Positions 4,501-64,000 of a stretch of 64,000 bases of DNA are shown in pieces. Numbering within the stretch: the first letter of the stretch is position 1; each line of letters opens with the position of its first letter. The notes beneath the pieces are model-generated. The model was not told the DNA's origin and did not search any database. It worked only from the letters and a program-made list of their open reading frames with translations. Position numbers and translations under genes: made by a program. This DNA comes from Amphiura filiformis (taxonomy: Eukaryota; Echinodermata; Ophiuroidea; Amphilepidida; Amphiuridae): the NCBI RefSeq assembly GCF_039555335.1, contig NC_092642.1:10302752-10366751 (forward strand), in the 5' to 3' direction.

Positions 4501-4871
4501 CTTAAAACTTTATAGCCCTAAACCTGATCTGTTGGGTGGCGGTAGATTCTAAAGTCCAATGTATTTAAGTAATTAATCGAAAAGTCTTGCCGATTGATAA
4601 GGTGTAAGATTACAGAAATGCATAACAAATCGTTTTATGTTTGCAAGCAGTTGAATGATGTTAATGATGACGCAAATATTTGTGTTATGGAATTGTTGGA
4701 AGCAAATTGTATGTTCTTGTTGTAGCTATTATACTTATGTTCACACTTCTATTGATAAGCAATTGTCAGTGCCCAATTTGCTTTAAACGAAAATCATACA
4801 CACATACCTTCCAGTAATACGTTTACTGCAGATGATCTGCAATTGTTGAAATTCAAAATTCCTCTCTTTGT
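1541..4871. other. About 3.3 kb without a recognisable gene
   Basis: AT-rich DNA with many short frames on both strands, none with a recognisable domain or convincing splice context. A CTAACCC-like degenerate microsatellite occurs near 4460-4490. The 1600-1830 stretch is richer in GC than its surroundings but shows no coding frame. Confidence 0.5.
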
Positions 4872-5562
4872 GTCGGTTTAGTGTCATGCAAAGGCCTCAC
4901 AAAATCGGTAACGAAAGTGTCTTCACTAAAGTTTTGCTTGCTGAGGTGGGGTAGTAGTATTATGGGACCCCGTTTACGATGTTGTCAGAGGACCTCTGTC
5001 ACCTGTGCCTAGGTCCTCGAGAAACACAAGGCCCCTGTTGTGTTGGTGTGTTGTCTTGGAAGTAATGACCTGAGTAATAGCAATTCATACATACCCCACC
5101 CTCCCACCCCCCCAGCACACACACCCACCGCACCCCAACATTACTATACCCCGTATGCATACTTACTTGTATTCGCAGGCAAACGATGACGTATGTGATA
5201 CACCCACCGTGAAACGTGTCGGTTTAGTGTCATGCAAAGGCCTCACAAAATCGGTAACGAAAGTGTCTTCACTAAAGTTTTGCTTGCTGAGGTGGGGTAG
5301 TAGTATTATGGGACCCCGTTTACGATGTTGTCAGAGGACCTCTGTCACCTGTGCCTAGGTCCTCGAGAAACACAAGGCCCCTGTTGTGTTGGTGTGTTGT
5401 CTTGGAAGTAATGACCTGAGTAATAGCAATTCATACATACCCCACCCTCCCACACCCCCAGCACACACACCCACCGCACCCCAACATTACTATACCCCGT
5501 ATGCATACTTACTTGTATTCGCAGGCAAACGATGACGTATGTGATACACCCACCGTGAAACG
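4872..5562. repeat. Two-copy direct tandem repeat, unit about 346 bp
   Basis: The segment starting GTCGGTTTAGTG at 4872 recurs at 5218 and runs with very few changes to CCGTGAAACG near 5562. Each unit contains a C-rich stretch of CACCC/CCCAC words. Frames crossing it are open only because the sequence is duplicated; no protein was recognised. Confidence 0.85.
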
Positions 5563-6448: not shown

Positions 6449-9400
6449 AGGACAGACGACTGTTTAGCGAATGGAGATATTTCTTTGCTACTTCAACTTC
6501 ATCGTCGTTTGGTATCTTGGCTGGCTCAATCTCAAGGAAAAGGCATGAGGACAAAGGTGAGATATATAATAATTGTTACAAAAAATTAAAACCATCATCG
6601 TTTCAAAATCCACCACCACTACTACCACTTCCACCACTAAACACACCATCAGCACCAACAACACCACCAAACCTACCATTAACACCAACAACATCAACAA
6701 CACTGAACACTGAGAGAGATTAAGGTATCACTATCAGCTACTATCCCCAGAATCACACTACCACCACCATCAAAACCACACTAGCAGCCAAGCCAAAACC
6801 ATCACCACGCCCACCACATGCACCACCACCAAATTGACGCCCCTAAAACCAAAACTATAACCACCACATTCGTTGCCGTCATAACAATCGAAACTGCAAT
6901 GATGGATTCACTGTCACCAACATCAGCAAGGGCAAGGCAACTACGCTAAATTGTTAAATACACAGTGCCGCCGAGAGCTATTACGGGCCCGGGGGCAATG
7001 TGAACGCACGGGCCCCTTTGATCAGTGATGACGGTGCAGGACTTCATAAGTGTGGGTGTGTGTGGGGGGGGGGGGGCAACAAATTTCTTTGTAACATGGG
7101 GGAGGGAGGTTGGTGTAAAATCCTTGAACATATGTTGCAGACGGGAGCGAAAGTACCATGTTTAGATGCCAACAATCAAATATGAACATTGAAGGAGACA
7201 AATGCGCGCGAAGCGCGCACAAATTTGCTATTTGAACGGCATTTTGCTCCCATATTAAGTTTCTCTGAACAACTTCCACGCGAAGTGTAAAAAATTTGCC
7301 AATTTAAAGCCATTTGAAGCTAAAATGATCCAAGTATGAACCGGTGAATTATGCACGCCAAGCTCGCAAAAATTTGTAATTAGAATTAGCGACTTTTGCT
7401 CCCAGATTGGACATATTGAAAGAAACTCCGTGCGAAGCGCGGAAAAATTGCCAATTTTAAGGTAAATGATCATAATAAAGTGAAGGGCAGTAGGGCACAA
7501 TGCGAACGAAGCGCGCGAAAATTTGCAATTTGTGTTCCCACGATTAAGCTGTGCACTCCCCTGATTTCTCGTTCGTAGATTTCATTATATCGAGGATGAT
7601 CATTTTGGCAAAAGCAATGAGTAAATTCAAGTGAAATATTTATTAGAGTGTGTGCTTCAAACGCTATCTTGTATTTTTTTAAATAAAATGCACGTCTCTT
7701 TTCTATGTTTTTACGGGCCCGTTACTTTTGTTTGGTTTTATGGGCCGAAAAGAGCAAAGAAAACATACCTTATAATGGACCCGTAAAGGCAAAGAAAAGA
7801 GACCGTAGTGGGCCCGTAAAAAGCAAAGAAAAGATACCATAGGCCCGTAAAGGAAAGAAAAGAGACCTTAGTGAGTATGTAAAAAAACCTTAATAAGCAA
7901 AGAAAAGATATATAATGGACCCATAAAAAGAAAAAAAAGAGACCTCGGAGGGCCCGTAAAAAGCAAAGAAGAGATACCTTAGGCCTAAGAAAAGAGACCT
8001 TTGTCGGCCCGTATAGTAAAGTAACGAAAATATGCCTTAATTGCAAGATATCTATTCTGAACCTTTTACGGCCCCTGAGGTCCGTTTTCTTGGCTTTTAA
8101 TGCCCCATAAAAAAGTCTCTTCTCTTCACTTTTTACGCGCCCCCTGGGCCCCCGGGCCCCGGGGTAACGACCCCGGCTACCCCCCCTTGTCGGCGGCACT
8201 GTAAATACAAGGGCAATCAGCATCACATAGAGAAATTTAGAAATAATTATTCAAGAAAAAAATCAAGCATTACCACCACCAATATCACCACCACAAACAC
8301 CACCAACACTTACACCACCACACAGGCCCGTACGCGGGGGGGGGGGGGGTGCGACCCCCCCCCCCAAATTTGGAAAAGTATACAAAAAGTCCAAAAATTT
8401 CAGAATTTGCGAGCGTAGCGAGCCAAAAAATCAGGGTTTTACGCTTTTTGGACAAAAAGGTCAACATTTTAGGAAGAAAGCCCACTTTTCACAAAATTTG
8501 GAAAAAAGGTCCACTTTTTCAAAATCAGCCCCCCCCATGAAATCCTGCGTACGGGCCTGCCACCACACCACCCACCGCCATCATCATCACCACCATCAAA
8601 ACCAACAACACCAACACACACCACCAAACCTACAATGAACGACTAATCGTCTTTTAAGTTCAGAGTAGTATTAAATGAATCTATCACAGTAACATGAATT
8701 TGTTGTGTATTTCAGGAAAAGAATTATCCAAATCAAGACTTACTGCAACTTATGACAAGACGAAGTGAAATATATCATATATTTCATCAAGGTAAAACAT
8801 TGTGTTCCTTTTCACTTAGTAAATCACACATTTACATTAATGATCTACTAACAATGCCCATAACCGAAATTTCAACAACACTTTTGCTTGACCTGAGAAT
8901 TAGGATATCGAGAATTATAGGCATGCCAATACAATGTAAATGCGAACAACAATTCCATGGAATGCGAAATTTGCATTTGATTTAATTCAGACCAGATTAT
9001 CATGTCATTTTTTACAAATAGGTTGTAACAGAAAAATATATACAATTTAGAAAATAGTATTATGCAAAAATGCAACTTACTGATTGTATGAAATTGTTAC
9101 TTGGTCGTCAAGCAATTTCTTAAGCTAATACGTCAACTCTATTTCAATAAAATCGGTTGTCTATAAGCGATGATACGACCAATTGAATATATGAATACAA
9201 AAGCCACCTAAGTCCATACTTAAACCAAATTGAGTTAAGCATGGGAAAGTGTTCCTTTACATAGGCCTGTCATATGTATGAAAGAACAACTCAAATTCAT
9301 CCTCTGTGTCTATTGAGCATGTGAAAAATAGCATGTATGAAAGAATCACCCAATTCCATGATTTGAGTCTTGTAACACATTGATTAAAATCCAGTATGTA

Positions 9401-11257
9401 TAAAAGTCCACTTGTAACACATTCATTGCTAGAGAGTGACTTTTGAAAAAAAATGGGTTTAATAAAGGAAAGTGTGTGGTTTATATTACATGGCAGAATG
9501 CTTATCAACATTATACATACCTGTGCGCTTTATTTTGTATTATCTTACTAGTGGTAATCTCATTCTAACATTGTTGTCTTTGTATATGATTCAAACAACC
9601 ACCTAAGTCCAAAATTTAAAATGAACCCCACGAAGTCCCTGAAATGCTAATCGTCATACCTAATACAGGTTAATCCACTCATTTGCACGTAAAACTTACC
9701 ATATTGACCAGGTAAATCTAACTGAAGGAATTAAAATGATACACAGGTTTTTCTCTCAAAATCACTTCCCATGGACTTAGGTGGCTTTTGTATTCATGTA
9801 TTCAATTGTGTCAAGTATTCCTAAAACAGCTTGGGCTACTTTCGTGTCTTTGTGAAGCAAAAGTTACTGAATTAAGTTGAATCATGAACCATCTAATCGG
9901 TGCTCTTAGAATGGGTATTTTGAAGTGGTATTTTAATTTGTGATTTCGATCAAGTGAAAAAAAAACATGAAAGACCTTTGTTTTGTTTTGAGATCTTTGA
10001 CGATAAGCATGAGAATTCATTTTACGAGGTGCAAATTTGGTACAATGGCCCAACTCGGGTAATTATGTAAAATCGTGCATAGTGTTTGAACCTGAATTAG
10101 GAAAGACACCAAGTAAAGTTTTTCTATTAGCCAAGATATTAGTGATTCTACTGCATATTTATGTCATGAACCCTTTTATTTCTTTAATGAAAACGAAAAT
10201 GCAATTGCTAAACATGAAACTCGATTTTACGCAAAGCAAGCTTGATATGCGCGAAAAATCCAAACTGGCCCAACTCGTTTTCTGGGCAATTTAGTTAATT
10301 GAACATAGCGTTTGAGCCCGAACTAGTAAAGAAACTAAGTGAAGGTTTCTGTTACTGATTCCACTGCATACAATATTGTTGGCAATTCATGCGCGTATTT
10401 GGGGGGCTTTGGGCGCCAGCCCCGGGGTAAAAGCAGGGGCGGCCAAAATGAAGGGGCGGCGGAAGAAGAAGGGGCGGCAAAAACAGGGGCGGCAAAAACG
10501 AAGGGGGTGGCAAAAAGAATTAGTAAATAAAAAAGGGCGGAAAAATTTGATAAATCATAAACATTTTTGCAAAAATGGTCTATACATCAAAATGTGCTCC
10601 TTTTAGGGCGCTAGCGCCTGAAACCCTTTTTTCACTTTTTCAAACGACCGAGAAAAAATTGGGTCAACCTTTTCGGGCTGTTGAGGAAGGGGCGGCAAAA
10701 TTGAATTTTCTTCAGCCCCCCGGGGTTGGGGCGGCCACGGTACGCCACTGGGCATGATCTGGTTTTTTTTCAGAGAAGCAAAATTGCAATTGTATAATCA
10801 TTATTGTTACAGTCTGTATGAGCACCTGACTCATCTATTGTCAACTCCTAGTCATTTGCTTCTGTCAGTATGCCAGATGGCTACTGTTTCTGCAGTGGCA
10901 GAAGCTGCTTCCTGTGTGATTTTCTCTCTATATATCTTTGGTTTGTATTTTTTTTGTATATAAAAAGCAAATGCGAATAATAGCGCATCAGACATTGACA
11001 AAGCCAATGCACAGAATGATAAATGCAAGCAAACTGATTCTCATGAAGAGTTCTCATTGGTCAATCAAATGGTTCACTGCATCTCAGAGCTGTTGCCAAT
11101 TAACAAGGACACAAATTTACAGGGGATAAAAACAGTGGTAAAGGTCCATGCACATGAGGACAACATCAATATACAAACGTTTTTGCCTCTTCCCCCTCTT
11201 CCAGACATTGACAAAGACGATATCTCACATGATTCACTAGTCATTCAGAAATTTTAA
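6449..11257 (+). CDS. Unidentified gene A, internal and possible terminal exons
   Basis: Three exons join in frame. Exon a ends at 6556 before GTGAGA and reads LLLQLHRRLVSWLAQSQGKG; its acceptor is one of several AGs at 6446-6455. Exon b is 8716-8791 (acceptor ATTTCAG, donor GTAAAA) and reads EKNYPNQDLLQLMTRRSEIY then HIFHQ. Exon c starts at 10776 after TTTTTTTTCAGAG and reads EAKLQLYNHYCYSLYEHLTH onward. Junction phases are 0 and 1 and agree only in this frame. Exon c reaches a TAA near 10961; the same frame reopens at once and runs to 11257 with an acidic, polar peptide (LPLPPLPDIDKDDISHD). That could be a separate last exon, or the TAA could be a real end or a disabling mutation. The helical, leucine-rich peptide suggests a soluble alpha-helical protein, but I do not recognise the family. 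Earlier exons were not found. Confidence 0.4.
6596..6835 (+). repeat. (ACC/CCA)n-rich trinucleotide DNA in gene A intron
   Basis: Imperfect CCA/ACC triplet repeats follow exon a of gene A and resume at 8260-8330 and 8560-8640 on the far side of two inserted elements. Frames in it give poly-Pro/Thr or, on the other strand, poly-Val/Leu peptides that are artefacts of the repeat. Confidence 0.75.
6955..8209. mobile_element. Non-autonomous hAT-type element, 1239 bp, 8-bp TSD
   Basis: The body runs 6963-8201 with terminal inverted repeats CAGTGCCGCCGA and TCGGCGGCACTG. It is bounded on both sides by TAAATACA (6955-6962 and 8202-8209), an exact 8-bp target duplication. The CAG start and 8-bp duplication fit the hAT superfamily. 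Inside are GC-rich ends, a block of GCGCGAAGCGCGC-type words (7200-7520) and a minisatellite (7735-8110). There is no transposase, so it would need help from another copy. Confidence 0.85.
7735..8110. repeat. Minisatellite of GGGCCCGTAAAAAGCAAAG units
   Basis: About ten imperfect units of roughly 30-40 bp built on GGGCCCGTAAAAAGC and AAAGAAAAGAGACC. It sits wholly inside the 6963-8201 element. The long minus-strand frame across it (7738-8226) gives a Phe/Leu-rich repetitive peptide and is not a gene. Confidence 0.7.
8315..8567. mobile_element. Small hAT-type element, 237 bp, 8-bp TSD
   Basis: The body runs 8323-8559 with perfect 13-bp inverted ends CAGGCCCGTACGC / GCGTACGGGCCTG. It is flanked by CCACCACA on both sides (8315-8322 and 8560-8567). 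Because the host is CCA-rich DNA the duplication alone is weak, but its position exactly at the inverted ends supports it. Poly-G and poly-C tracts lie just inside both ends. Confidence 0.8.
9180..9812. mobile_element. About 620-bp inverted-terminal-repeat element, copy 1
   Basis: Ends are TGAATATATGAATACAAAAG and CTTTTGTATTCATGTATTCA, followed inward by CCACCTAAGTCCA on both sides. A second, nearly identical copy lies at 46308-46943. The flanking bases are themselves palindromic, so the target duplication cannot be fixed. It lies in the intron between exons b and c of gene A. Confidence 0.7.
10395..10755. mobile_element. GC-rich repeat fragment with one hAT-type end
   Basis: The right edge reads GGTACGCCACTG, the inverted form of the CAGTGGCGTA end found elsewhere here. 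The body is full of GGGGCGGC words. The expected left end is not visible, so the copy is truncated or diverged. Frames with Arg/Lys/Gly-rich peptides (10339-10606) come from this repeat. Confidence 0.45.
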
Positions 11258-15591: not shown

Positions 15592-15627
15592 GACGTTTCA
15601 AGAGCTAAGGTCTGCTCTTTTCATCAG
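15592..15627 (-). ncRNA. Hammerhead-ribozyme-like motif, intact core (element strand)
   Basis: Reading the minus strand: CTGATGA (15627-15621), AAGAGC, an 8-base loop, GCTCTT, GAAA, then CGTC. The order and sequence match the conserved hammerhead core with a six-base-pair stem II. GAAACGTC would make stem III the self-complementary ACGU, so cleavage after GUC may need dimer formation. That last point is inference. Confidence 0.6.
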
Positions 15628-16341
15628 CCAGATGATGCACTGATCTGCTTGGGTTGCCAGTTGACTTCTTGTTGGTATTGATTGAAGTAACACTGTCATC
15701 ACCAGAAATCAATACATCATAAAGGTGGCTTAATTTGAATGTGCCATCAACTCTGTTCATAGATTGGGTGCCCCGCCTCCGGATCCAAATGGATTCCTTG
15801 ACCCATCTTGTATACTTGTCATTTTCAGTTGTAAGAATTGCGCTATCCTCCCAGCCTATAACATGGTTATTTTGAGCTACGTGCTCAGCTAATGCAGAAG
15901 TGAGAAATTCTGATTCAGATGCTTTCCTGTTTGCCCTGGTAAATCTGTTTTTGGAAGTATTTTCCACCGATTTGACATGTTCCTGTTTTCTGGTACCAAA
16001 CGCTCTGCCCGTTTCTCCAACATATGTAGCTTCACAACCTTGGCATGGAATTTCATACACACAATCTGTGATTTTATCCTTTTCTCTTTTGTCCTTGGGA
16101 TGTACCAGAATATTGGGCAGAGTGGTCATGGGCTTCATTGCTGTGGCAATATTGTGTTTTTTTGAAAATCCGCTGTGCTTTTTCTGACAGACCTTGTACG
16201 TAGGGAATAACAACCAGATCTTTATTTCTGTTGGTATCATCTTTCTTTTTTGCTGGTTTACCTTGTTGCTGCTTTTGTTTTATGGCGCTTTCCACTTTCT
16301 CAAAAGCCCACTGAGGGTAACCACATTTCTGGAGGGAATTT
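15605..16341 (-). pseudogene. Penelope-like GIY-YIG ORF fragment with one frameshift
   Basis: Two overlapping minus-strand frames make up one protein. The first reads CGYPQWAFEKVESAIKQKQQ through LVVIPYVQGLSEKAQRIFKK. It is interrupted by an extra base in the seven-A run at about 16157-16163. The second continues with HNIATAMKPMTTLPNILVHP, then the GIY-YIG domain: VYEIPCQGC, YVGETGRAFGTR, EH, and the catalytic-Glu region WVKESIWIRR. The CxxC and two His residues of the zinc-like CCHH set are present. The reverse transcriptase is missing. It ends at the TAG overlapping the hammerhead motif. Confidence 0.8.
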
Positions 16342-18229: not shown

Positions 18230-18520
18230 TCTACTACAAGTAAGATATGTATCTTATAGGGGCTAGGACTACAACTACTGCACTTGAAATTTTATTTCAG
18301 CACAGACAACAGTTGTGGAGTTACAGTCAAAAATGAGGGAAAACCAATATTTGATTAATAATTCAATAACTACTTACCTTGAGTTGCTGAATTGTCAGTG
18401 CAGTAGTTGTAGTCCTTGCCCCTATAATATACATATCTTACTTGTCACCAATGCGTTATAATTTTTGAGAAAAATGCAAAAATAGGCAAAAAATTGGTCA
18501 GTGGTGTAGTACCCCCTTAA
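18230..18520. mobile_element. Diverged foldback element related to the TTAA-flanked MITE at 35.7 kb
   Basis: Inverted arms at about 18232-18285 and 18396-18450 share CAAGTAAGATATGTAT and GACTACAACTACTGCAC. The right part (18415-18516) resembles the 35724-35929 element, including GAGAAAAATGCAAAA and GGTGTAGTAC, and ends at TTAA (18517-18520). The matching left TTAA end is unclear. Confidence 0.5.
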
Positions 18521-18883
18521 GGAGACTGAATTTGAGTTTTGTGAAGAGTAAAATTTATTGATATTTGAGGTGATATTTACTGAACCTAAATACCAAGTGT
18601 TTGTCAGAACAGAAATACACTTGCAATGTAGTTTTGAAAGTGGGAGGAACTTTAAAAGGTGGTACATACTCAGAAAGTTTGAATGTCCCCCCCGGGCCAA
18701 ATGTTATAAACGTACTGTACACAATGAAACAGCATGAGTTCATTGGACAATCACGAATCAGCACAGTTGTTTTTGTATCGTAGGATAACATTTAACCCCC
18801 GTGGAGGGGGATTCAAACTTTTTGAGTACGTACCACTTTTAAGAGCCATATTCTTAAGCTCTTCCCATTTGCAAAAAAATTGA

Positions 18884-21290: not shown

Positions 21291-21680
21291 AGTAGGACCC
21301 AGAGGATGATTTAAGCACTACCCAGCAAGTCTTGCAGTTAGCATAGCTGTGTGAGTGAATATGACACCACTGCCCGCCCACTGCATAGACGTGCATTGTT
21401 AAATTTGAATTTGGACTGATGTATTAACAATAAAAACACCTTCAAAAAGCTGGTCGATTTCACATTTTATGTTATCTACAGAAGGTGTGAATTATCCTTT
21501 ATGCATCACTTTAGATCTGAAATCGACCAAGTAATAATGACACACACATACAATTCTAAAAGAACATCTTTTGCACAGAGTTCAATAGTATTTGAAAAGT
21601 AAAGTGGTAGTTGAAACTCTAGTGATAACACTTTTGCAGTGCATGATGGGGCTTCCTTAAATCATCCTCTGAGTAGGACC
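21291..21680. mobile_element. 372-bp element with 9-bp TSD (CAGAGGATG family, copy 1)
   Basis: The body runs 21300-21671 with inverted ends CAGAGGATGATTTAAG and CTTAAATCATCCTCTG. It is flanked by AGTAGGACC on both sides (21291-21299 and 21672-21680), an exact 9-bp duplication. An inner palindrome GGTCGATTTCA / TGAAATCGACC lies at 21450-21528. A 9-bp duplication suggests a Mutator- or Merlin-like mechanism rather than hAT. A second family member is at 40745-41117. Confidence 0.85.
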
Positions 21681-32550: not shown

Positions 32551-33331
32551 CATACTGCAGTTACTGTCCGTTTTCCTATACACAATACACAGTGCTCTTA
32601 CCATTGACGCGTGACCTCTACACATAGCGTATGGGGATTTGCCTAGTTAACGTCGCTGTGTGAAAAATAACCGGCCGATATTAAAAGTACTCTTCTAAAA
32701 TTCTAGAAAATATAGTTTTGTAACATGTCCTAAATTTTTAGCTAATTTAGATGTTTGGAAATATGCGTACTTTGGTGTTTTAGTGTATGTTATAGGTAAT
32801 AGTACATTGCCTAGTTAACGTCGCTGTGTGAAAAATAACCGGCCAATATTAAAAGTACTCTTCTAAAATTCTAGAAAATATAGTTTTGTAACATGTCCTA
32901 AATTTTTAGCTAATTTAGATGTTTGGAAATATTCGTACTTTGGTGTTTTAGGAAGGATATGTAAACGACAGATAACACCAAAAATATGAAGAAATTATTT
33001 CCAAACCGTGTTAAGTCAACAATTATTATGTTGCTCATTTTCAAGAATGCTGGTTAACAAAAAGCAGGCCATTGTCTCATTTCGTGAACAAAGGTCCACA
33101 TACCATTGTTTCCTTGCGTTTCCTTTATAATCGGTTACCCAACGGAAGCTATAAATACCAGCTCATTGCGATACCGCACATATAAAACAGACACATGTGC
33201 ACAACCAGGAAGATCTGATTTAATCAGTTGAGCTGTTTTCAATGAGTGTTATCTTGGTTTAATAGCTTTTAATGGGGTTTAAGTCCTGCAAAGGTCGAGG
33301 TGAATTCTACTGTAGACATGACTGCATCATG
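32551..33331. repeat. Dispersed 0.78-kb repeat R, copy 1
   Basis: Runs from CATACTGCAGTTACTGTCCG to ATGACTGCATCATG; the tips are loosely inverse. It contains two direct sub-units of about 130 bp (GCCTAGTTAACGTCGCTGTG at 32641 and 32809, period 168). Other copies are 38003-38708 (5'-truncated) and 62803-63593. A short frame reading MGFKSCKGRGEFYCRHDCIM is conserved at the right end of all three copies, without evidence that it is expressed. Confidence 0.7.
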
Positions 33332-33383
33332 ATTTATCCTGCCAAAACTACTGCTCGCGTGTGCCCGCCCAAGATTACATTAC

Positions 33384-35256
33384 CCGGCACCGCTGTTCGT
33401 CGTGGGCACTTAGTTTTAACTCATAGTCTAAATGCGCGTCGCTTAGGCAGTTTTCCCGCGAAATTTGAAATTCAACTTGCGCTAATTTCGCTGCGCGTAA
33501 ATACAGTCGCATTGTATTTCGCACTATACCGGCCTTTTAGTTCCCATTGTAGGCATAAATATTGATGTACTTTTATAAATAAAATGTTCTCTTTCATATA
33601 ATATTGCTCATTTTTTTCAAAAGTCCAAACAATGTCTTCAAAACATTGTTTTTATTCAGATGTCCCAAAAATACAGATTTGAACTATTTTTTCAGAAATT
33701 GCCAAATATATAAATTAAAAGCCAGTTCCAAATATTTTTCAGCGGAAATCCAGATATACCACATAGTTTTTATTAATAACTATCAATGTCGATATTCACT
33801 CATGCTTTCAAATTTAACGTATCAATTCTATTTTTTGAAATATATGTCTTCTAATTTTGGACTATTTTTTATTCCTTTTTTTCTTTTCAAATTTAAATAT
33901 ACCTTCCAGAAGATGTCCCTGTATTTTGCATTATATCATGATATATTACGATTTTTTTAAATTAAATCAATTGATAACCCCCATATTCTTTTTGTTTACT
34001 ATGTATCCGTCTATTTTTGTTTACAAACATTGAACAGCTGATCCCACAAATCAGCTGATCTTGCTATAGGGCCTACATATCGCATTCGACATAACGCATG
34101 AAGGCCTAGCGCGTACCGGTATTAATCCATGCATACATGGTCAATATGTGCATGATATAAAATCAACATCTCTGATGAATTGAAGGCCATCGATTCTACA
34201 AAGCACGATACCAGCAGGAAGTCACAAAATGATCCAAAAATATAGATCAAGAGGAAGTGTAGTTGTATACGATGAAACTAGCTACAGCATTTAGCAGCAC
34301 AAATGAAATGGGCCAAAATGTAAATGACTGCAGGCCTGCACGGTTTACATTATTTCATAGCTTTTCCACACCCAGCGGACATGCAAATGCCGTCGTATTA
34401 TAAAATAATAAATATAATTATGACTTATATATATTAGTTCATGGGTATACTATTATCATAAATAAAATTGTTAATAGTGATGTGACAATAAACCATTATA
34501 CACTCATCATTTTAAAAAAAGCCGGGGAAAAAAAGAAAATTTATATTATTTAGGCCTATAGGCTAGGCTAGGTCGATGTTGGTATATATTATGCAGAAAC
34601 ATAAAGCTGTTCCTATTTTTACATTTCTATTTTTTTATGAACATTATTTTGTTAAGCATGAATTTTGATAGGCATGTATACAATCGCGCAATCCCCGGCC
34701 CCGCCGAGTGCCTTTCAACAATCACCACGCTAGACGCTCTTTTGCATGTTGAATTTGTGTCCATTTTTGGACCACATTGAGGATGGCTTTACTCGGGTCA
34801 TGGAATTGATATGTAAAATTTTTCTTCGGAATAAATTAAATTTGACCCTATATATTAATTGTATATTGACGAAATTTCTGAAATTCCGCTATTTTTTTAA
34901 AAACCTGTTATTTTAGTTACTAATTTGGCAAGAGTTTAATTTTTACTCAGAAAGTCATGCAGAAATACTGCGAAGTTCGCTGGTGTTTTTAAGAAAAATA
35001 TTACGGCTTCAATAAATCCAGATATATTGTATGGTGCATTTATTACCCTATTTTTGATTTCTTGATGAATTATGTATGTATTCGTTCAAATAGAGCCGTT
35101 ATACTCATGTTTCCGTGCTTGTTTACTTCACGAAATTGCGCTGTGCACGCCGCCATTTCTATAAACAACCGCGCGCACGCGTAAACGACGTGCAATTGAG
35201 ACTAAGCGAACTGAACTAAGTGCCCACTTTAACGTACGCACGAACAGCGGTGCCGG
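33384..35256. mobile_element. 1865-bp CACCG element with CCGG TSD, present only in unit 1
   Basis: The body runs 33388-35252 with inverted ends CACCGCTGTTCGT / ACGAACAGCGGTG and a second shared inverted block GTGGGCACTTAGTT. CCGG flanks both sides. The empty site is preserved in unit 2 as TACCCGGGCAGG (about 38757-38768), which proves a clean insertion. A 4-bp duplication and CAC tips resemble Chapaev/CACTA-type elements. The interior is AT-rich and its longest frame (33604-33960) shows no transposase motif. Confidence 0.88.
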
Positions 35257-35719
35257 GCAGGAAATTCCCTGCCCGGGTACCCGTAATTTCAACAAAAAAT
35301 TCTTTTTTCGGTATCGTAACTCTGGACCTAGAGTTAAATGCTGGGATCATTCATGGTTGACTTACAAAAAAATATATAAAAATTGTGTTTTTTTATGCAA
35401 AGTGATTATTTGTGTTCATGTTATACCGGTACTATACGATGTATTCATAATTTCAATATGGATACAAATTCAATGTATTTTGAAATCATTAATAGAGTAT
35501 AACATGAATACAAATTATTAATTTGCATAATTATTAAAAACACAAACCCTTTTTTTTTGTAAATCAACCATGAATGATTGAAAGGTCCAGAGACACTCTG
35601 AAACAGAAACAGAAAATAAAAGAATTTTTTTAAATTTTGTTACCCTATTTTATTTAATACCCGCCCGAAAAATGCGTCGGGTACCTGGGCACAAATTTAA
35701 TTACCTGAAAATCCCTGGC

Positions 35720-35933
35720 TTAAGGTGGTACTACACCCCTTGATAAATTTGTGACTATTTTTGCATTTTTCTCAATAAATAATAACACACTGGTAACAAA
35801 AGCTATGCATGTATATTATAGGGACAAGGAATCCTTGCCCTTATACATAACTTTTGTTACCAATGCGCAGCTATTTTTTGAGAAAAATGCAAAATTAGTC
35901 ACAAAATTTATCAGGGGTGTAGTACCAGCTTAA
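35720..35933. mobile_element. TTAA-flanked palindromic MITE, unit 1 copy
   Basis: TTAA on each side of a 206-bp body with inverted ends GGTGGTACTACACCCC and GGGGTGTAGTACCAGC. Most of the element is self-complementary (GAGAAAAATGCAAAA and its inverse). TTAA targets suggest a piggyBac- or Kolobok-type parent. The open frame at 35751-35933 exists only within this palindrome. Confidence 0.8.
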
Positions 35934-36000
35934 TGAACACCATTTACTACTTGTATGTAGTACATGATTAACTACAACAATACGATGACATTTCATCAAC

Positions 36001-36336
36001 TTTGAATGTCAGTCAAAGGTCTCATTTCAGGTGTCACATCACTAAAAAGACATATCGATCATGTGATGGCATTTCTTGAATTAATGATTCCCTGCTGGTT
36101 GCTGCCATCAAGTCATTTCCAGTCTATCGACGTCCCATGCCATGGAAGCTAGAGTTCTCGAGTACAACTTTGAATGTCAGTCAAAGGTCTCATTTCAGGT
36201 GTCACATCGCAAAAAAGACATATCGATCATGTGATGGCATTTCTTGAATTAATGATTCCCTACTGGTTGCTGCCATCAAGTCATTTCCAGTCTATCGCCG
36301 TCCCATGCCATGGAAGCTATAGAGTTCTCGAGTAAA
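36001..36336. repeat. Two-copy tandem repeat, period 168 bp (unit 1)
   Basis: TTTGAATGTCAGTCAAAGGT begins at 36001 and again at 36169, each running to GAGTTCTCGAGTA with few differences. Confidence 0.85.
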
Positions 36337-37225
36337 TCATTCTTGAATGCTCCCGTTGAATTTCCATGCTGTTCCCCTCTTTTCATGTTATTTATATCAT
36401 GTGCATTTGCACCCCATTCATGCCATTTGCTCCTATTTGCTCAGCATGTGTAAGTAATGCTTTGATCACTACTACTACATGTACATGTAGTTAGCACTGA
36501 CTGGTCTAGTCTAGTTGATGTACTTCACCATCAGTTTTATCATGGTCTTATTCAGAATCTTGTATACTGATCTTGTATAGACTGATAATACGTCCTTCAC
36601 TTACACAGGATCGGCTACATACATTTACATGTATAAATGTAAATGGTACCAGTAGTCCATGTTGCAAATCATGAAATTGCAATGCATATTGAACATGTAT
36701 CCAGTTGATGAACAGGCTTCTGACGAGCAAATGCATAGAGAAGAACTAAGATATACATCAGTGCTGTCGTCCAGTTCTGCACTCATGCACTGAACACAGC
36801 ATACACGTCGTAATCATACGCCCGATTTGTGAAGTTTTCCAACTTCAGTTGGTTCCTGAGGATGACTAAACTGAAGCAAACTGACCTCTGAAGCTAAAGA
36901 AACGAATAGTTACATATCGTCCTGGGTGTATCGCATGCATGTACAACTATCTCACCGGCTCATCATCTGCCAACATCAACAACGTACCGGTACATGGCGT
37001 AACGTAAATGTTATGGCTCAATCCCATGATGCAATGCACGCATTTAACCTAAAATCAACGGGAATAAATGTCCAGATCTAGACTTTTATTCGAAAATCAT
37101 GAAATTTTACCCGAAAGACGCCGAATTTCGCTTAACTATTTCAGATTATGATTTGTATGTACAACCATTGCGTACATGTAAAAAACCAGACTTTGAGCTA
37201 GTTTGACCGAAATTGAGGGCGTTCT

Positions 37226-37248
37226 ATGCGCGATCTCTGATGCGCGAT
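37226..37248. other. Excision footprint: two 9-bp TSD copies around CTCTG
   Basis: ATGCGCGAT (37226-37234), CTCTG (37235-37239), ATGCGCGAT (37240-37248). At the same place in unit 2 the two ATGCGCGAT copies flank a 373-bp element ending in CCTCTG. Unit 1 thus keeps the duplication plus the last five bases of the element, as expected from imprecise excision. Confidence 0.8.
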
Positions 37249-39229
37249 ATCTCTCATTGCCCCTTTAACAACACAAAATGTTGCAGTCAAAATGCCACTT
37301 AGATTTTTAATTATTTTGAATTTTGGCGCACTGAAAGCAGAGATTATAGATTCATTGGTGCAAACAGATGCATATTTAGACCATGCACCAGATACAGCTT
37401 TTGCAAGTGTGAAAGTCTTACCGTTTTAAAATTTAAGGACGTTTTGTGCATAATTTTGACATTTTTTTACTAAAACGTCGATTTCTCAGAGTTATATATA
37501 TTGCGCGATTTTTGTGACAAGATAACTGAAAAATATGCAAGCAAAGGGTAAACTTTTTGCACTATCCTTTAGACTACATCAAAGTCTAGGGAAGGTTTTT
37601 TTCATTTTTTCAAAATATTTGTTTTAAGCAAAAATATACACCATTATGTGCAATTTTTAGCTTAATAGAGTGACAAAATGGCTTTTTTCACATGTTTTTT
37701 TCAATATTTCGAAAAAGAGACAAATTTCAAAAAAATAAAAAAACCTTCCCTAAGTTCATGTCTCTTCTTCATGAAAAGCTAACTGAATTTTTTTTACTCC
37801 GAACGGATTTTTTTCTAAGTTGTCACAAAAAAATTGGGGTAAAAAAGTGAATTTTTGTGATTTTTTCAAAAACTTGAGATTTTTGAAAGATTCCTTGACT
37901 CATTTCCTTTCCAAAAATGTATAGTTTTATATACTTTGGACATACAATTCAGAAATAATGAAGCTCGAAAAGGTCCATGTTCTCTCCCATTACTCTGCCC
38001 TTGTATGGGGATTTGCCTAGTTAACGTCGCTGTGTGAAAAATAACCGGCCGATATTAAAAGTACTCTTCTAAAATTCTAGAAAATATAGTTTTGTAACAT
38101 GTCCTAAATTTTTAGCTAATTTAGATGTTTGGAAATATGCGTACTTTGGTGTTTTAGTGTATGTTATAGGTAATAGTACATTGCCTAGTTAACGTCGCTG
38201 TGTGAAAAATAACCGGCCAATATTAAAAGTACTCTTCTAAAATTCTAGAAAATATAGTTTTGTAACATGTCCTAAATTTTTAGCTAATTTAGATGTTTGG
38301 AAATATTCGTACTTTGGTGTTTTAGGAAGGATATGTAAACGACAGATAACACCAAAAATATGAAGAAATTATTTCCAAACCGTGTTAAGTCAACAATTAT
38401 TATGTTGCTCATTTTCAAGAATGCTGGTTAACAAAAAGCAGGCCATTGTCTCATTTCGTGAACAAAGGTCCACATACCATTGTTTCCTTGCGTTTCCTTT
38501 ATAATCGGTTACCCAACGGAAGCTATAAATACCAGCTCATTGCGATACCGCACATATAAAACAGACACATGTGCACAACCAGGGAAGATCTGATTTAATC
38601 AGTTGAGCTGTTTTCAATGAGTGTTATCTTGGTTTAATAGCTTTTAATGGGGTTTAAGTCCTGCAAAGGTCGAGGTGAATTCTACTGTAGACATGACTGC
38701 ATCATGATTTATCCTGCCAAAACTACTGCTCGCGTGTGCCCGCCCAAGATTACATTACCCGGGCAGGAAATTCCCTGCCCAGGTACCCGTAATTTCAACA
38801 AAAAATTCTTTTTTCGGTATCGTAACTCTGGACCTAGAGTTAAATGCTGGGATCATTCATGGTTGACTTACAAAAAAAAATATATAAAAATTGTGTTTTT
38901 TTATGCAAAGTGATTATTTGTGTTCATGTTATACCGGTACTATACGATGTATTCATAATTTCAATATGGATACAAATTCAATGTATTTTGAAATCATTAA
39001 TAGAGTATAACATGAATACAAATTATTAATTTGCATAATTATTAAAAACACAAACCCTTTTTTTTTGTAAATCAACCATGAATGATTGAAAGGTCCAGAG
39101 ACACTCTGAAACAGAAACAGAAAATAAAAGAATTTTTTTTAAATTTTGGTTACCCTATTTTATTTAATACCCGCCCGAAAAATGCGTCGGGTACCTGGGC
39201 ACAAATTTAATTACCTGAAAATCCCTGGC

Positions 39230-39444
39230 TTAAGGTGGTACTACACCCCTTGATAAATTTGTGACTATTTTTGCATTTTTCTCAATAAATAATAACACAC
39301 TGGTAACAAAAGCTATGCATGTATATTATAGGGACAAGGAATCCTTGCCCTTATACATAACTTTTGTTACCAATGCGCAGCTATTTTTTGAGAAAAATGC
39401 AAAATTAGTCACAAAATTTATCAGGGGGTGTAGTACCAGCTTAA
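39230..39444. mobile_element. TTAA-flanked palindromic MITE, unit 2 copy
   Basis: Duplicate of 35720-35933 carried by the segmental duplication, with TTAA on both sides. Confidence 0.8.
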
Positions 39445-39511
39445 TGAACACCATTTACTACTTGTATGTAGTACATGATTAACTACAACAATACGATGAC
39501 ATTTCATCAAC

Positions 39512-39843
39512 TTTGAATGTCAGTCAAAGGTCTCATTTCAGGTGTCACATCACTAAAAAGACATATCGATCATGTGATGGCATTTCTTGAATTAATGATT
39601 CCCTGCTGGTTGCTGCCATCAAGTCATTTCCAGTCTATCGACGTCCCATGCCATGGAAGCTAGAGTTCTCGAGTACAACTTTGAATGTCAGTCAAAGGTC
39701 TCATTTCAGGTGTCACATCGCAAAAAGACATATCGATCATGTGATGGCATTTCTTGAATTAATGATTCCCTACTGGTTGCTGCCATCAAGTCATTTCCAG
39801 TCTATCGCCGTCCCATGCCATGGAAGCTATAGAGTTCTCGAGT
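39512..39843. repeat. Two-copy tandem repeat, period 168 bp (unit 2)
   Basis: Duplicate of 36001-36336; units start at 39512 and 39680. Confidence 0.85.
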
Positions 39844-40735
39844 AAATCATTCTTGAATGCTCCTGTTGAATTTCCATGCTGTTCCCCTCTTTTCATGTTA
39901 TTTATATCATGTGCATTTGCACCCCATTCATGCCATTTGCTCCTATTTGCTCAGCATGTGTAAGTAATGCTTTGATCACTACTACTACATGTACATGTAG
40001 TTAGCACTGACTGGTCTAGTCTAGTTGATGTACTTCACCATCAGTTTTATCATGGTCTTATTCAGAATCTTGTATACTGATCTTGTATAGACTGATAATA
40101 CGTCCTTCACTTACACAGGATCGGCTACATACATTTACATGTATAAATGTAAATGGTACCAGTAGTCCATGTTGCAAATCATGAAATTGCAATGCATATT
40201 GAACATGTATCCAGTTGATGAACAGGCTTCTGACGAGCAAATGCATAGAGAAGAACTAAGATATACATCAGTGCTGTCGTCCAGTTCTGCACTCATGCAC
40301 TGAACACAGCATACACGTCGTAATCATACGCCCGATTTGTGAAGTTTTCCAACTTCAGTTGGTTCCTGAGGATGACTAAACTGAAGCAAACTGACCTCTG
40401 AAGCTAAAGAAACGAATAGTTACATATCGTCCTGGGTGTATCGCATGCATGTACAACTATCTCACCGGCTCATCATCTGCCAACATCAACAACGTACCGG
40501 TACATGGCGTAACGTAAATGTTATGGCTCAATCCCATGATGCAATGCACGCATTTAACCTAAAATCAACGGGAATAAATGTCCAGATCTAGACTTTTATT
40601 CGAAAATCATGAAATTTTACCCGAAAGACGCCGAATTTCGCTTAACTATTTCAGATTATGATTTGTATGTACAACCATTGCGTACATGTAAAAAACCAGA
40701 CTTTGAGCTAGTTTGACCGAAATTGAGGGCGTTCT

Positions 40736-41126
40736 ATGCGCGATCAGAGGAGGCTTAAAGGCATTCCTACAATGCACTATGATTGGGAAATTTGATCAAT
40801 ATAACCTAATTTTAAAGGCAAAGTCCCCATTGCCACACACACAAAATGGTCATTTTAAAACTGCAGCCAACGAGCTAATAGTTGAGACTTAGGACTGATA
40901 TTTAATTTTCTTACAGGAAACATTCATATTGTCCCACTGCATTAATTTTATTCCTAAGTCTCGATGTTATGAATGTTAAATAATAGGATGAAAACACCAG
41001 ATATTTGCACACAATTCCAATGCAAGGCATGATCAACTGTACCATATGTGTACAAAAGCCAGACATACAAGGTCAGAAACCCCATTGGGTTGTGGGAATG
41101 TCTTTAAACATCCTCTGATGCGCGAT
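40736..41126. mobile_element. 373-bp element with 9-bp TSD (CAGAGGATG family, copy 2)
   Basis: The body runs 40745-41117 with inverted ends CAGAGGAGGCTTAAAGGCAT and ATGTCTTTAAACATCCTCTG, flanked by ATGCGCGAT at 40736-40744 and 41118-41126. The length and tips match the 21300-21671 element. It encodes no protein. Confidence 0.88.
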
Positions 41127-41863
41127 ATCTCTCATTGCCCCTTTAACAACACAAAATGTTGCAGTCAAAATGCCACTTAGATTTTTAATTATTTTGAATT
41201 TTGGCGCACTGAAAGCAGAGATTATAGATTCATTGGTGCAAACAGATGCATATTTAGACCATGCACCAGATACAGCTTTTGCAAGTGTGAAAGTCTTACC
41301 GTTTTAAAATTTAAGGACGTTTTGTGCATAATTTTGACATTTTTTTACTAAAACGTCGATTTCTCAGAGTTATATATATTGCGCGATTTTTGTGACAAGA
41401 TAACTGAAAAATATGCAAGCAAAGGGTAAACTTTTTGCACTATCCTTTAGACTACATCAAAGTCTAGGGAAGGTTTTTTTCATTTTTTCAAAATATTTGT
41501 TTTACGCAAAAATATACACCATTATGTGCAATTTTTAGCTTAATAGAGTGACAAAATGGCTTTTTTCACATGTTTTTTTCAATATTTCGAAAAAAGAGAC
41601 AAATTTCAAAAAAATAAAAAAAACCTTCCCTAAGTTCATGTCTCTTCTTCATGAAAAGCTAACTGAATTTTTTTTACTCCGAACGGATTTTTTTCTAAGT
41701 TGTCACAAAAAAATTGGTGTGATTTTTTCAAAAACTTGAGATTTTGAAAGATTCCTTGACTCATTTCCTTTCCAAAAATGTATAGTTTTATATACTTTGG
41801 ACATACAATTCAGAAATAATGAAGCTCGAAAAGGTCCATGTTCTCTCCCATTACTCTGCCCTT

Positions 41864-45134: not shown

Positions 45135-45735
45135 GCTGAATAAGGTGCAACTATAGCCTTGCCTTCTGAACTGAAAATGACACTCTGAATAAGGTGCAAC
45201 TATAACCTTGCCTTCTGAACTGAAAATGACACTGACGTATTCAGTCGTATTCAGTCCATTAGAAGTATTACAGTTGACACTGACGCATTCCACCACTGAC
45301 ATATTATCAATGCTATTGCCACTGACGTATTCGCCTATTATTATGGTATTATCGTATGACACTGACGCATTCGCCTACTATGTGGATTATCGCATTGTAC
45401 ACTGACGCATTCGCACACTTTGTGGTATTGTTGCATTGCTACTGACGCATTCGCCCACTATGTGGTAATATCGCGTTGACACTGACGTATTCGCCTACAA
45501 TGTGATATTATCGCATTGACACTGGCGCATTCGCCTACTTTGTGGATTATCGCATTGTACACTGACGCATTCGCACACTTTGTGGTATTGTTGCATTGCT
45601 ACTGACGCATTCGCCCACTATGTGGTATTATCGCATTGACACTGACGTATTCGCCTAAACTATATGTGGTATTATCGCATTGACACTGACGTATTCGCCT
45701 AAACTATGTGATATTATCGCATTGTCACTGATATA
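45135..45735. repeat. Minisatellite of CACTGACGCATTCGCC units, about 40 bp, with higher-order structure
   Basis: About twelve units of CACTGACGYATTCGCCTACT followed by ATGTGGTATTATCGCATTG. A four-unit block of about 160 bp starting near 45381 recurs near 45541. The left edge has a separate direct repeat of TGAATAAGGTGCAACTATA. Confidence 0.85.
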
Positions 45736-45971: not shown

Positions 45972-47691
45972 CTGTAGGCCAGGGCCGTCACCATGGGGGT
46001 GTAGGGGGGTGCGACACCCCTCTGGCGATCCCAAAAAAAGAAAAAAAAAGAAGAAAGGGAGAGAGAAGGGGAAGAAAGAAGGGAGAGAGGGAGAGAGAGA
46101 AAGAGAGGGAAGGGGCAGGAAGGGATAAAAACTAGAAAAAAAGAAGACTAAAAAAAAGTTAGCGTGATGCGTTGAGAAATGATGTCTTGCTGACTATACA
46201 GATGAGATGAGAACTACATTCAGTTCGTATAATATAAGCCCTATTGGCCCGGTATATGAGGCCTACAATGATGTTGGCCTGGCGCGTTGAGGTGATGTGG
46301 CCATTAAACAAATGAATATATGAATACAAAAGCCACCTAAGTCCATACTTTGGCCAAATTGAGTTAAGCATGGGAAATTGTTGCTATACATAGGCCTGTC
46401 ATATGCATGAAAGAACAACTCAAATTCATTCTCTGTGTCTATTGGGCATGTGAAAAATAGCATGTATGAAAGAATTACCCAATTCCATGATTTGAGTCTT
46501 GTAACACATTGATTAAAATCCAGTATGTATAAAAGTCCACTTGTAACACATTCATTGCTAGAGAATGACTTTTGAACAAAAAATGGGTTTAATAAAGGAA
46601 AGTGTGTGGTTTATATTACATGGCAGAATGCTTATCAACATTATACATACCTGTGTGCTTTATTTTGTATTATCTTACTAGTGGTAATCTCATTCTAACA
46701 TTGTTGTCTTTGTATATGATTCAAAAACCACCTAAGTCCAAAATTTAAAATGAACCCCACGAAGTCCCTGAAATGCTAATCGTCATACCTAATACAGGTT
46801 AATCCACTCATTTGCACGTAAAACTTACCATATTGACCAGGTAAATCTAACTGAAGGAATTAAAATGATACACGGGTTTTTCTCTCAAAATAACTTCGCA
46901 TGGACTTAGGTGGCTTTTGTATTCATGTATTCATTAATGATTTTGTAAGATCGACAGAATTATATGTGCATCCCAATACCCCTCCGCACCTGGCCCTTCA
47001 TCAGCTCCAATGGAGATTAGCCATGGGCATAGGCGTAGATCCCAGGGGGGTGGGGATAAATTCCCCCAAAATAATGAAATGGAGATGGTCCATACAATCA
47101 CCCCCGATATGTTGACACCGACACCTGTAAATGTTGGTCTATTTTAGACCCAAAATTAAGCCCATTTTGGTATTTCTAGTATTAAAATGCCAAATTGCCG
47201 CATTTATTTTAGCAAACCCAAGTATTAGTAGATCTGCAAGACGCCCCATTGGAAATTGGAAGTCTCAAAAATGACAGTTATGTAAATTATAAATATGAGC
47301 GCTACTAGTAGGGCATACAGGTCTAATAAGTTAAGACATCAAGCTCATGAGCTGGGTCAAAATACCGGGACTTAATTAACCAAAAGGCCTAGATGCATCT
47401 TCCTTTAGCACGATTTTAGGACACAATTGTCATCGTTGCGTTCATTTTACCATTGAAACTGCAATTTGTTCGCGCGCAATTTGTCAAAGTTTTGTTCCTT
47501 AGTTTCCCGGTAAAGGAATTCCGGGGAGTGGACAAATTTGTGTTACAGTTGTGGGAGGAGTGTCTTCTATCCAATGAGCTAGGGTGGCGTGTTGCGCAGG
47601 TGCCAGCAAAAGGTAAATCGGGCCATACCAGGAAAATTTATTTCTATACACCCCCCTGAGAAAATGGTCTAGCGACGTCCCTGCTGTAGGC
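45972..47691. mobile_element. hAT-type element of 1.7 kb with 8-bp TSD, inserted in the satellite
   Basis: The body runs 45980-47683 with ends CAGGGCCGTC and GACGTCCCTG. CTGTAGGC, part of the satellite unit, flanks both sides (45972-45979 and 47684-47691). Inside are a purine-rich tract (46030-46155) and the nested 46308-46943 element. No transposase was seen. Confidence 0.75.
46308..46943. mobile_element. About 620-bp inverted-terminal-repeat element, copy 2
   Basis: Very similar over its whole length to 9180-9812, with the same TGAATAYATGAATACAAAAG ends. It is nested in the 45980-47683 element, so it is younger than that insertion. Confidence 0.75.
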
Positions 47692-62802: not shown

Positions 62803-63593
62803 CATACTGCAGTTACTGTCCGTTTTCTTATACACAATACACAGTGCTCTTTCCCATTGACGCGTGACCTCTACAAATAGCCCTACGTTAAAAGTATGGG
62901 GATATGACTAGTTAACGTCGCTGTGTGAAAAATAACCGGCCAATATTAAAAGTACTCTTCTAAAGTTCTAGAAAATATAGTTTTTAACATGTCCTAAATT
63001 TTTAGCTAATTTAGATGTTTGGAAATATTCGTACTTTGGTGTTTTAGTTAATGTTATAGGTAATAGTACATTGCCTAGTTAACGTCGCTGTGTGAAAAAT
63101 AACCGGCCAATATTAAAAGTACTCTTCTAAAATTCTAGACAATATAGTTTTGTAACATGTCCTAAATTTTTAGCTAATTTAGGTGTTTGGAGAGGGTCGC
63201 ACTTTTGTGTTTTAGGAAGGATATGTAAACGACAGATAACACCAACAATATGAAGAAATTATTTCCAAACCGTGTTAAGTCAACAATCATTATGTTGCTC
63301 ATTTTCAAGAATGCTGGTTTACAAAAAGCAGACCATTGTCTCATTTCGTGAACAAAGGTACACATACCATTGTTTCCTTTCGTTTCCTTTATAATCGGTT
63401 ACCCAACTGAAGCTATAATACAAGCTTTATTGCGATATCGCACATGAAAACAGACACTTGTGCACAACCAGAGAAGATCCGATTTAACCAGTTGAGCTGT
63501 TTCAATGAGTGTTATCTTGGTTTAATAGCCTTTAATGGGGTTAAGTCCTGCAAAGGTCGAGATGAATTCTACTGTAGACATGACTGCATCATG
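62803..63593. repeat. Repeat R, copy 3, inside the ARM-TIR intron
   Basis: Full-length relative of 32551-33331, with both ends and the paired sub-units at 62908 and 63074. It starts only 20 bp after the exon donor at 62783. It is more diverged than the 33- and 38-kb copies. The open frame crossing it (63444-63695) is not a TIR continuation. Confidence 0.7.
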
Positions 63594-64000
63594 GATTGCG
63601 ATTTACTGGCCAATGTTGTTCGGCTTGACCACACCATTAATATAAAAATCACTCTGACGTCACCTGATTTCTTAATAATGGCTGTCCAGCGTTAAGTCCG
63701 AAAGGCTGCTAAGAGTTAAATTTACATTCAAGAAATCCGGCTTTAATGAATATTTTGGGTTGGGTTCACGAGCGAGCCACTAGACTTAGTAGCCTCCATG
63801 ACCCCGTAAGCCCGAGGCTTACTATATTAAGCCGCTTGCCAATAGACTTACTGAACATTGGCCACTGACTGCATTGTTCCCGGGGTCGATTGACCAGTTG
63901 TCTCCCAAAGTCCCGCCCAAAGTATTGTTTAGTTTATATTTTATTTTCCATGGCAGTCACTATATTGGCCTGTCGACGGCCCTCGGCTTCATAATTGTTG
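63594..64000. other. Right edge, no exon recognised
   Basis: Presumed intron of the ARM-TIR gene. No frame resembling the rest of a TIR domain was found. Confidence 0.45.

Follow-up and report, generated by a model that had tools for sequence, protein, structure and literature searches.

Introduction

P elements make target-site duplications (TSDs) of 8 bp and are cut to leave a longer overhang inside the element, and the terminal inverted repeats (TIRs) of hAT elements start CAGNG. Other cut-and-paste systems are described here as they appear in excerpts of the papers cited. Where TSDs are present, excision of Muta1, from Aedes aegypti, is precise in most events (25/29 to 28/30 across six constructs), with up to 13 bp of TIR occasionally left behind by donors lacking TSDs, and its authors suggest that cutting takes place outside the TIR (PMC5225508). 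The hAT element Tol2 gave an 8-bp TSD in 86% of 333 in vitro insertions (PMC4818426), and the footprint of Sleeping Beauty is given as C(A/T)GTA (PMC3878927). Of 94 natural excisions in rice, only 8 resulted in exactly two TSDs, all others showing flank deletions or filler; 43 are listed with flank deletions, 58 with extra segments and nine with both, printed figures that are not quite additive (PMC4423477).

Here we describe a site in a 64-kb window, the whole stretch of Amphiura filiformis DNA that was analysed, which is very probably the scar left by excision of a MITE, a non-autonomous cut-and-paste element, whose group is marked by CAGAGG...CCTCTG ends and TSDs of 9 bp. Such a scar is a known phenomenon, a textbook-type event that is here cleanly preserved. 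The traits of the group, represented by two elements that we call E and F, would point three ways, to Mutator-like elements in the 9-bp TSD, to the hAT element Tol2 in the CAGAGG ends, and to Tc1/mariner elements in the form of the footprint.

Results

Self-comparison of the window reveals two units that adjoin without a gap, as a tandem duplication (Table 1). The original prediction called them nearly identical, which holds for their aligned parts, where there are 5 substitutions in 3475 positions (0.14%; 0/759 in R, 4/1981 in A and 1/735 in B) and nine small indels, the largest of 18 bp, but not for the units as wholes, the long insertion U being present only in unit 1. At the junction, 38002/38003, no bases are common to the two breakpoints, and B closes without any overlap with the first bases of R. 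Both units contain 168-bp tandem doublets, with 96-98% matches, in R (32639-32951 and 38013-38325) and in A (35997-36334 and 39508-39844), and a further copy of R (93%) lies at 62803-63597. Both also hold a near-palindromic element of about 215 bp with TTAA on each side (35720-35933 and 39230-39444), part of which has a diverged relative (82%) at 18413-18521.

Table 1. Positions in the window of the tandem units, the elements and the flanking repeats.
Feature	Position	Strand	Details
Element F	21300..21671	.	372 bp; perfect 16-bp TIR CAGAGGATGATTTAAG (16/16); interior unlike E
9-bp TSDs of F	21291-21299 and 21672-21680		AGTAGGACC
Tandem unit 1	32629..38002	.	R 32629-33387, U, A 35253-37234, footprint, B 37249-38002
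Insertion U	33388..35252	.	1865 bp, unit 1 only; TIR CACCGCTGTTCGT; 4-bp TSD CCGG
Probable excision footprint	37226..37248	.	TSD ATGCGCGAT 37226-37234, CTCTG 37235-37239, TSD ATGCGCGAT 37240-37248
Tandem unit 2	38003..41863	.	R' 38003-38762, A' 38759-40744, E with TSDs, B' 41127-41863
Left 9-bp TSD of E	40736..40744	.	ATGCGCGAT
Element E	40745..41117	.	373-bp MITE; imperfect 28-bp TIRs, 24/28 matching, CAGAGGAKGYTTAAAGRCATTCCYACAA
Right 9-bp TSD of E	41118..41126	.	ATGCGCGAT

The two units differ at the site of E in just the way that had been reported, unit 2 carrying the 373-bp element between two copies of ATGCGCGAT and unit 1 carrying both copies, at exactly the positions claimed, with CTCTG between them. 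This 9-mer is confined to these four sites in the window; its mean count in shuffles is 0.15, and none of 100 shuffles reaches four. Compared with unit 2, the unit 1 site has a net deletion of 368 bp, and only two deletion registers give the footprint, so that the CTCTG residue may be the five right-end bases of E with none from the left, or one left-end and four right-end bases. The join involves no more than 1 bp of microhomology. No substitution separates the units nearer to the footprint than 872 bp on its left and 379 bp on its right. Because two TSD copies and element-terminal bases remain in unit 1, its form needs an earlier insertion, and the proposal that E entered before the two versions of the site parted, and was then lost from one of them, is well supported.

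E and F have the character of MITEs, being short (373 and 372 bp), bounded by TIRs and 9-bp TSDs, and non-coding in as far as this is judged at a threshold of 110 aa, since the ORF list of the window, which has that minimum, places no ORF of at least 110 aa inside either. E starts CAGAGGAGG and finishes CATCCTCTG; the end label CAGAGGATG given to it originally describes the right end but not the left. CAGAGG is found at all four ends of E and F, and both intact copies, which are two sites only, have a perfect 9-bp TSD, the two duplications differing in sequence. Indeed, CAGAGG...CCTCTG pairs spaced by 60-4000 bp and flanked by a perfect 9-bp repeat occur twice in the window and in none of 200 Markov-simulated windows. 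The interiors of E and F show no similarity above letter shuffles, 108/300 and 256/300 of which score at least as high as the real comparison in the two orientations. The whole elements score 23 against each other (shuffle maximum 27) and 23 with F reverse-complemented (maximum 32), and because these values stay within the shuffles the kinship of E and F rests on their ends and TSD length. The window thus holds two copies of the E/F kind with unrelated interiors, and from these we take CAGAGG...CCTCTG between 9-bp TSDs to be the probable usual form of the group.

The occurrence of CAGAGGATG at 9298-9306 was considered as a further member of the group and rejected, as it sits inside a different, 626-bp repeated element, the other copy of which reads CATTCTCTG at this place, and the pair scan finds no TSD-flanked partner end for it. 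This 626-bp element, which has inverted terminal repeats, is present in two copies that are 97% identical (9180-9804 and 46309-46933).

Insertion U is flanked by CCGG at 33384-33387 and 35253-35256, and the motif is present once in unit 2, at 38759-38762, a precise empty site. A 125-aa frame within U (33583-33960) has no Pfam match, and a 118-aa frame spans its right end. To judge from this comparison, at least one other DNA element, U, would have entered the unit 1 lineage, or left unit 2 precisely, in the same period.

Discussion

Loss of E after its insertion, as originally proposed, is well supported. We regard an excision later than the duplication as likely rather than proven, as E-bearing and excised alleles may have coexisted before the units arose. 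The most durable alternative is that it is older, and that the two alleles were combined by tandem pairing or a later exchange. Such a history would suit the haplotype-like pattern in which the units differ by E, U, the 18-bp indel and eight smaller ones against 5 substitutions, but a divergence of 0.14% in substitutions needs no two haplotypes, and with no bases shared by the breakpoints there is no sign of a simple homologous unequal crossover; we consider this order of events possible, though rather unlikely.

The tandem units could also be two haplotypes misjoined in the assembly, the footprint and E then being allelic, in which case the excision reading survives. False haplotype duplication yields an identical layout, but there is no N in the 64 kb and, B and R being without overlap at the junction, an overlap assembler would presumably need reads crossing it. 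A misjoin therefore appears improbable.

Ordinary deletion of E through replication slippage or random breakage, with no transposase, is a still poorer account. Inverted repeats are deletion-prone, and only one event is known. Against this, slippage from TSD to TSD would cost one TSD and both are whole, the join has at most 1 bp of microhomology, and the chance that both breaks fall this near the borders of E is about 2.2e-4 in a uniform model that confines each break to within 200 bp of its boundary, a simple model that makes the figure only indicative. We thus judge such a deletion very improbable.

We take the CTCTG form to be derived, probably a remnant of the occupied form, because F shows CAGAGG...CCTCTG with a 9-bp TSD as the standard of the group. 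The converse, in which the CTCTG form, as a short tandem repeat, is ancestral and the 368 bp of E arose there in some other way, found nothing in its favour and is scarcely credible, as it requires the last five bases of E and a 9-bp direct repeat to coincide and F carries the same ends and TSD length elsewhere.

Excision by a transposase is thus the account that we prefer. E would have inserted once, in the common ancestor of both units, and a transposase acting in trans, E itself having no long ORF, would have cut it from the unit 1 lineage. The broken ends would then have been joined without homology, leaving both TSDs together with five right-end bases, or one left-end and four right-end bases. 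A staggered cut could leave CAGAG overhangs on both flanks, from which repair to a single strand would yield CAGAG or CTCTG. A stagger of 5 nt within the element predicts one or other of these, and CTCTG is observed; the 5-nt stagger is our hypothesis, drawn from one event. Aborted copying from the sister or homologue could likewise leave 4-5 end bases.

Occupied and excised paralogous sites within a duplication that has diverged by only 0.14% provide direct evidence of recent MITE excision, and hence of transposase action, and the footprint gives one readable repair product. The earlier claim of a recently active transposase is a sound inference, because the divergence of the units is so low (5/3475), but the 8 ORFs scanned against Pfam, out of 31 in the window of at least 110 aa, include no recognisable transposase. 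The matches among these eight were one each to Trypsin, Arm (barely above the cut-off) and GIY-YIG.

The comparison with described groups divides trait by trait, here as far as the excerpts of the cited sources extend. Both E and F have 9-bp TSDs, within the 8-10 bp that Mutator-like elements make without sequence preference, and equal to one of the two lengths, 8 or 9 bp, made by Muta1 (PMC5225508). Muta1-type MULEs also have many non-autonomous derivatives that are alike only at their ends, as E and F are, but the TIRs of Muta1 are long and accompanied by subterminal tandem repeats, unlike those of E and F (PMC5225508). The scar, which keeps both TSDs and element bases, is not a typical Muta1 product because Muta1 excision in the presence of TSDs is mostly precise (PMC5225508). 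A likeness to it lies in the stretch of TIR that Muta1 donors lacking TSDs occasionally leave at the site, and a difference in the cutting outside the TIR that its authors suggest (PMC5225508). The Mutator TIR consensus is GAG as against CAGAGG in E and F, a consensus that comes from rice and may differ in animal MULEs (PMC4423477).

With hAT elements it is the ends that agree. Those of Tol2, CAGAGGTGTAAAG and CAGAGGTGTAAAA as given by primer sequences, have the CAGAGG of E and F as their first six bases (PMC4818426), and CAGAGG also has the initial CA by which hAT TIRs are recognised in a rice table (PMC4423477). The TSD does not agree, being 8 bp in hAT elements and 9 bp in both E and F. As both 9-mers start with A, the duplications could conceivably be 8 bp long with a chance extra base at each site. 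The scar is also unlike hAT excision, which is described as passing through flank hairpins to a random footprint (PMC3878927). Its form is instead that of Tc1/mariner footprints, in which the terminal bases of one end lie beside the target duplications, but these elements have a TA target and 2-3 nt overhangs, as against a 9-bp TSD and 5-nt residue here (PMC3878927).

The combination of 9-bp TSD, CAGAGG ends and staggered excision is thus shown by none of the three, MULE, hAT or Tc1/mariner, in the excerpted accounts. A group that truly pairs a 9-bp TSD and Tol2-like ends with Tc1-like staggered excision is a doubtful proposition. Its transposase would cut the non-transferred strand about 5 nt inside the element, and if this is true empty sites should regularly read TSD-CTCTG-TSD or TSD-CAGAG-TSD. 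If further empty sites prove to carry this 5-base residue, they would set limits on the chemistry by which elements of the E/F group are cleaved. By analogy with the rice excisions, a scar with whole flanks and element bases only would be one of many excision outcomes; the rice counts indicate that footprints of a few extra bases are common, and the scar of E is an ordinary example.

A literature search for CAGAGG-type ends or MITEs with 9-bp TSDs found no family with the ends of E and F, which is not proof of absence. The TIR pattern had no match in prokaryotic genome contigs, a result uninformative for the host, and matched two loci in viral contigs, L001 and L002, the second of which appears by eye to overlap the first in opposite orientation. 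The L001 match (902-924) was rejected as chance, as it lies inside a 399-aa levivirus coat-protein ORF (159-1358).

Other features of the window

The frame with the GIY-YIG match lies at 433-1338 on the minus strand, and we take it to be Penelope-like. A similar-looking frame at 15605-16279, also on the minus strand, has no Pfam match at 0.001. At 4870-5562 a unit of 346/347 bp is present twice, head to tail, with 99.7% identity between the copies, and a minisatellite of about 10 copies of 40-bp units extends from 45315 to 45731.
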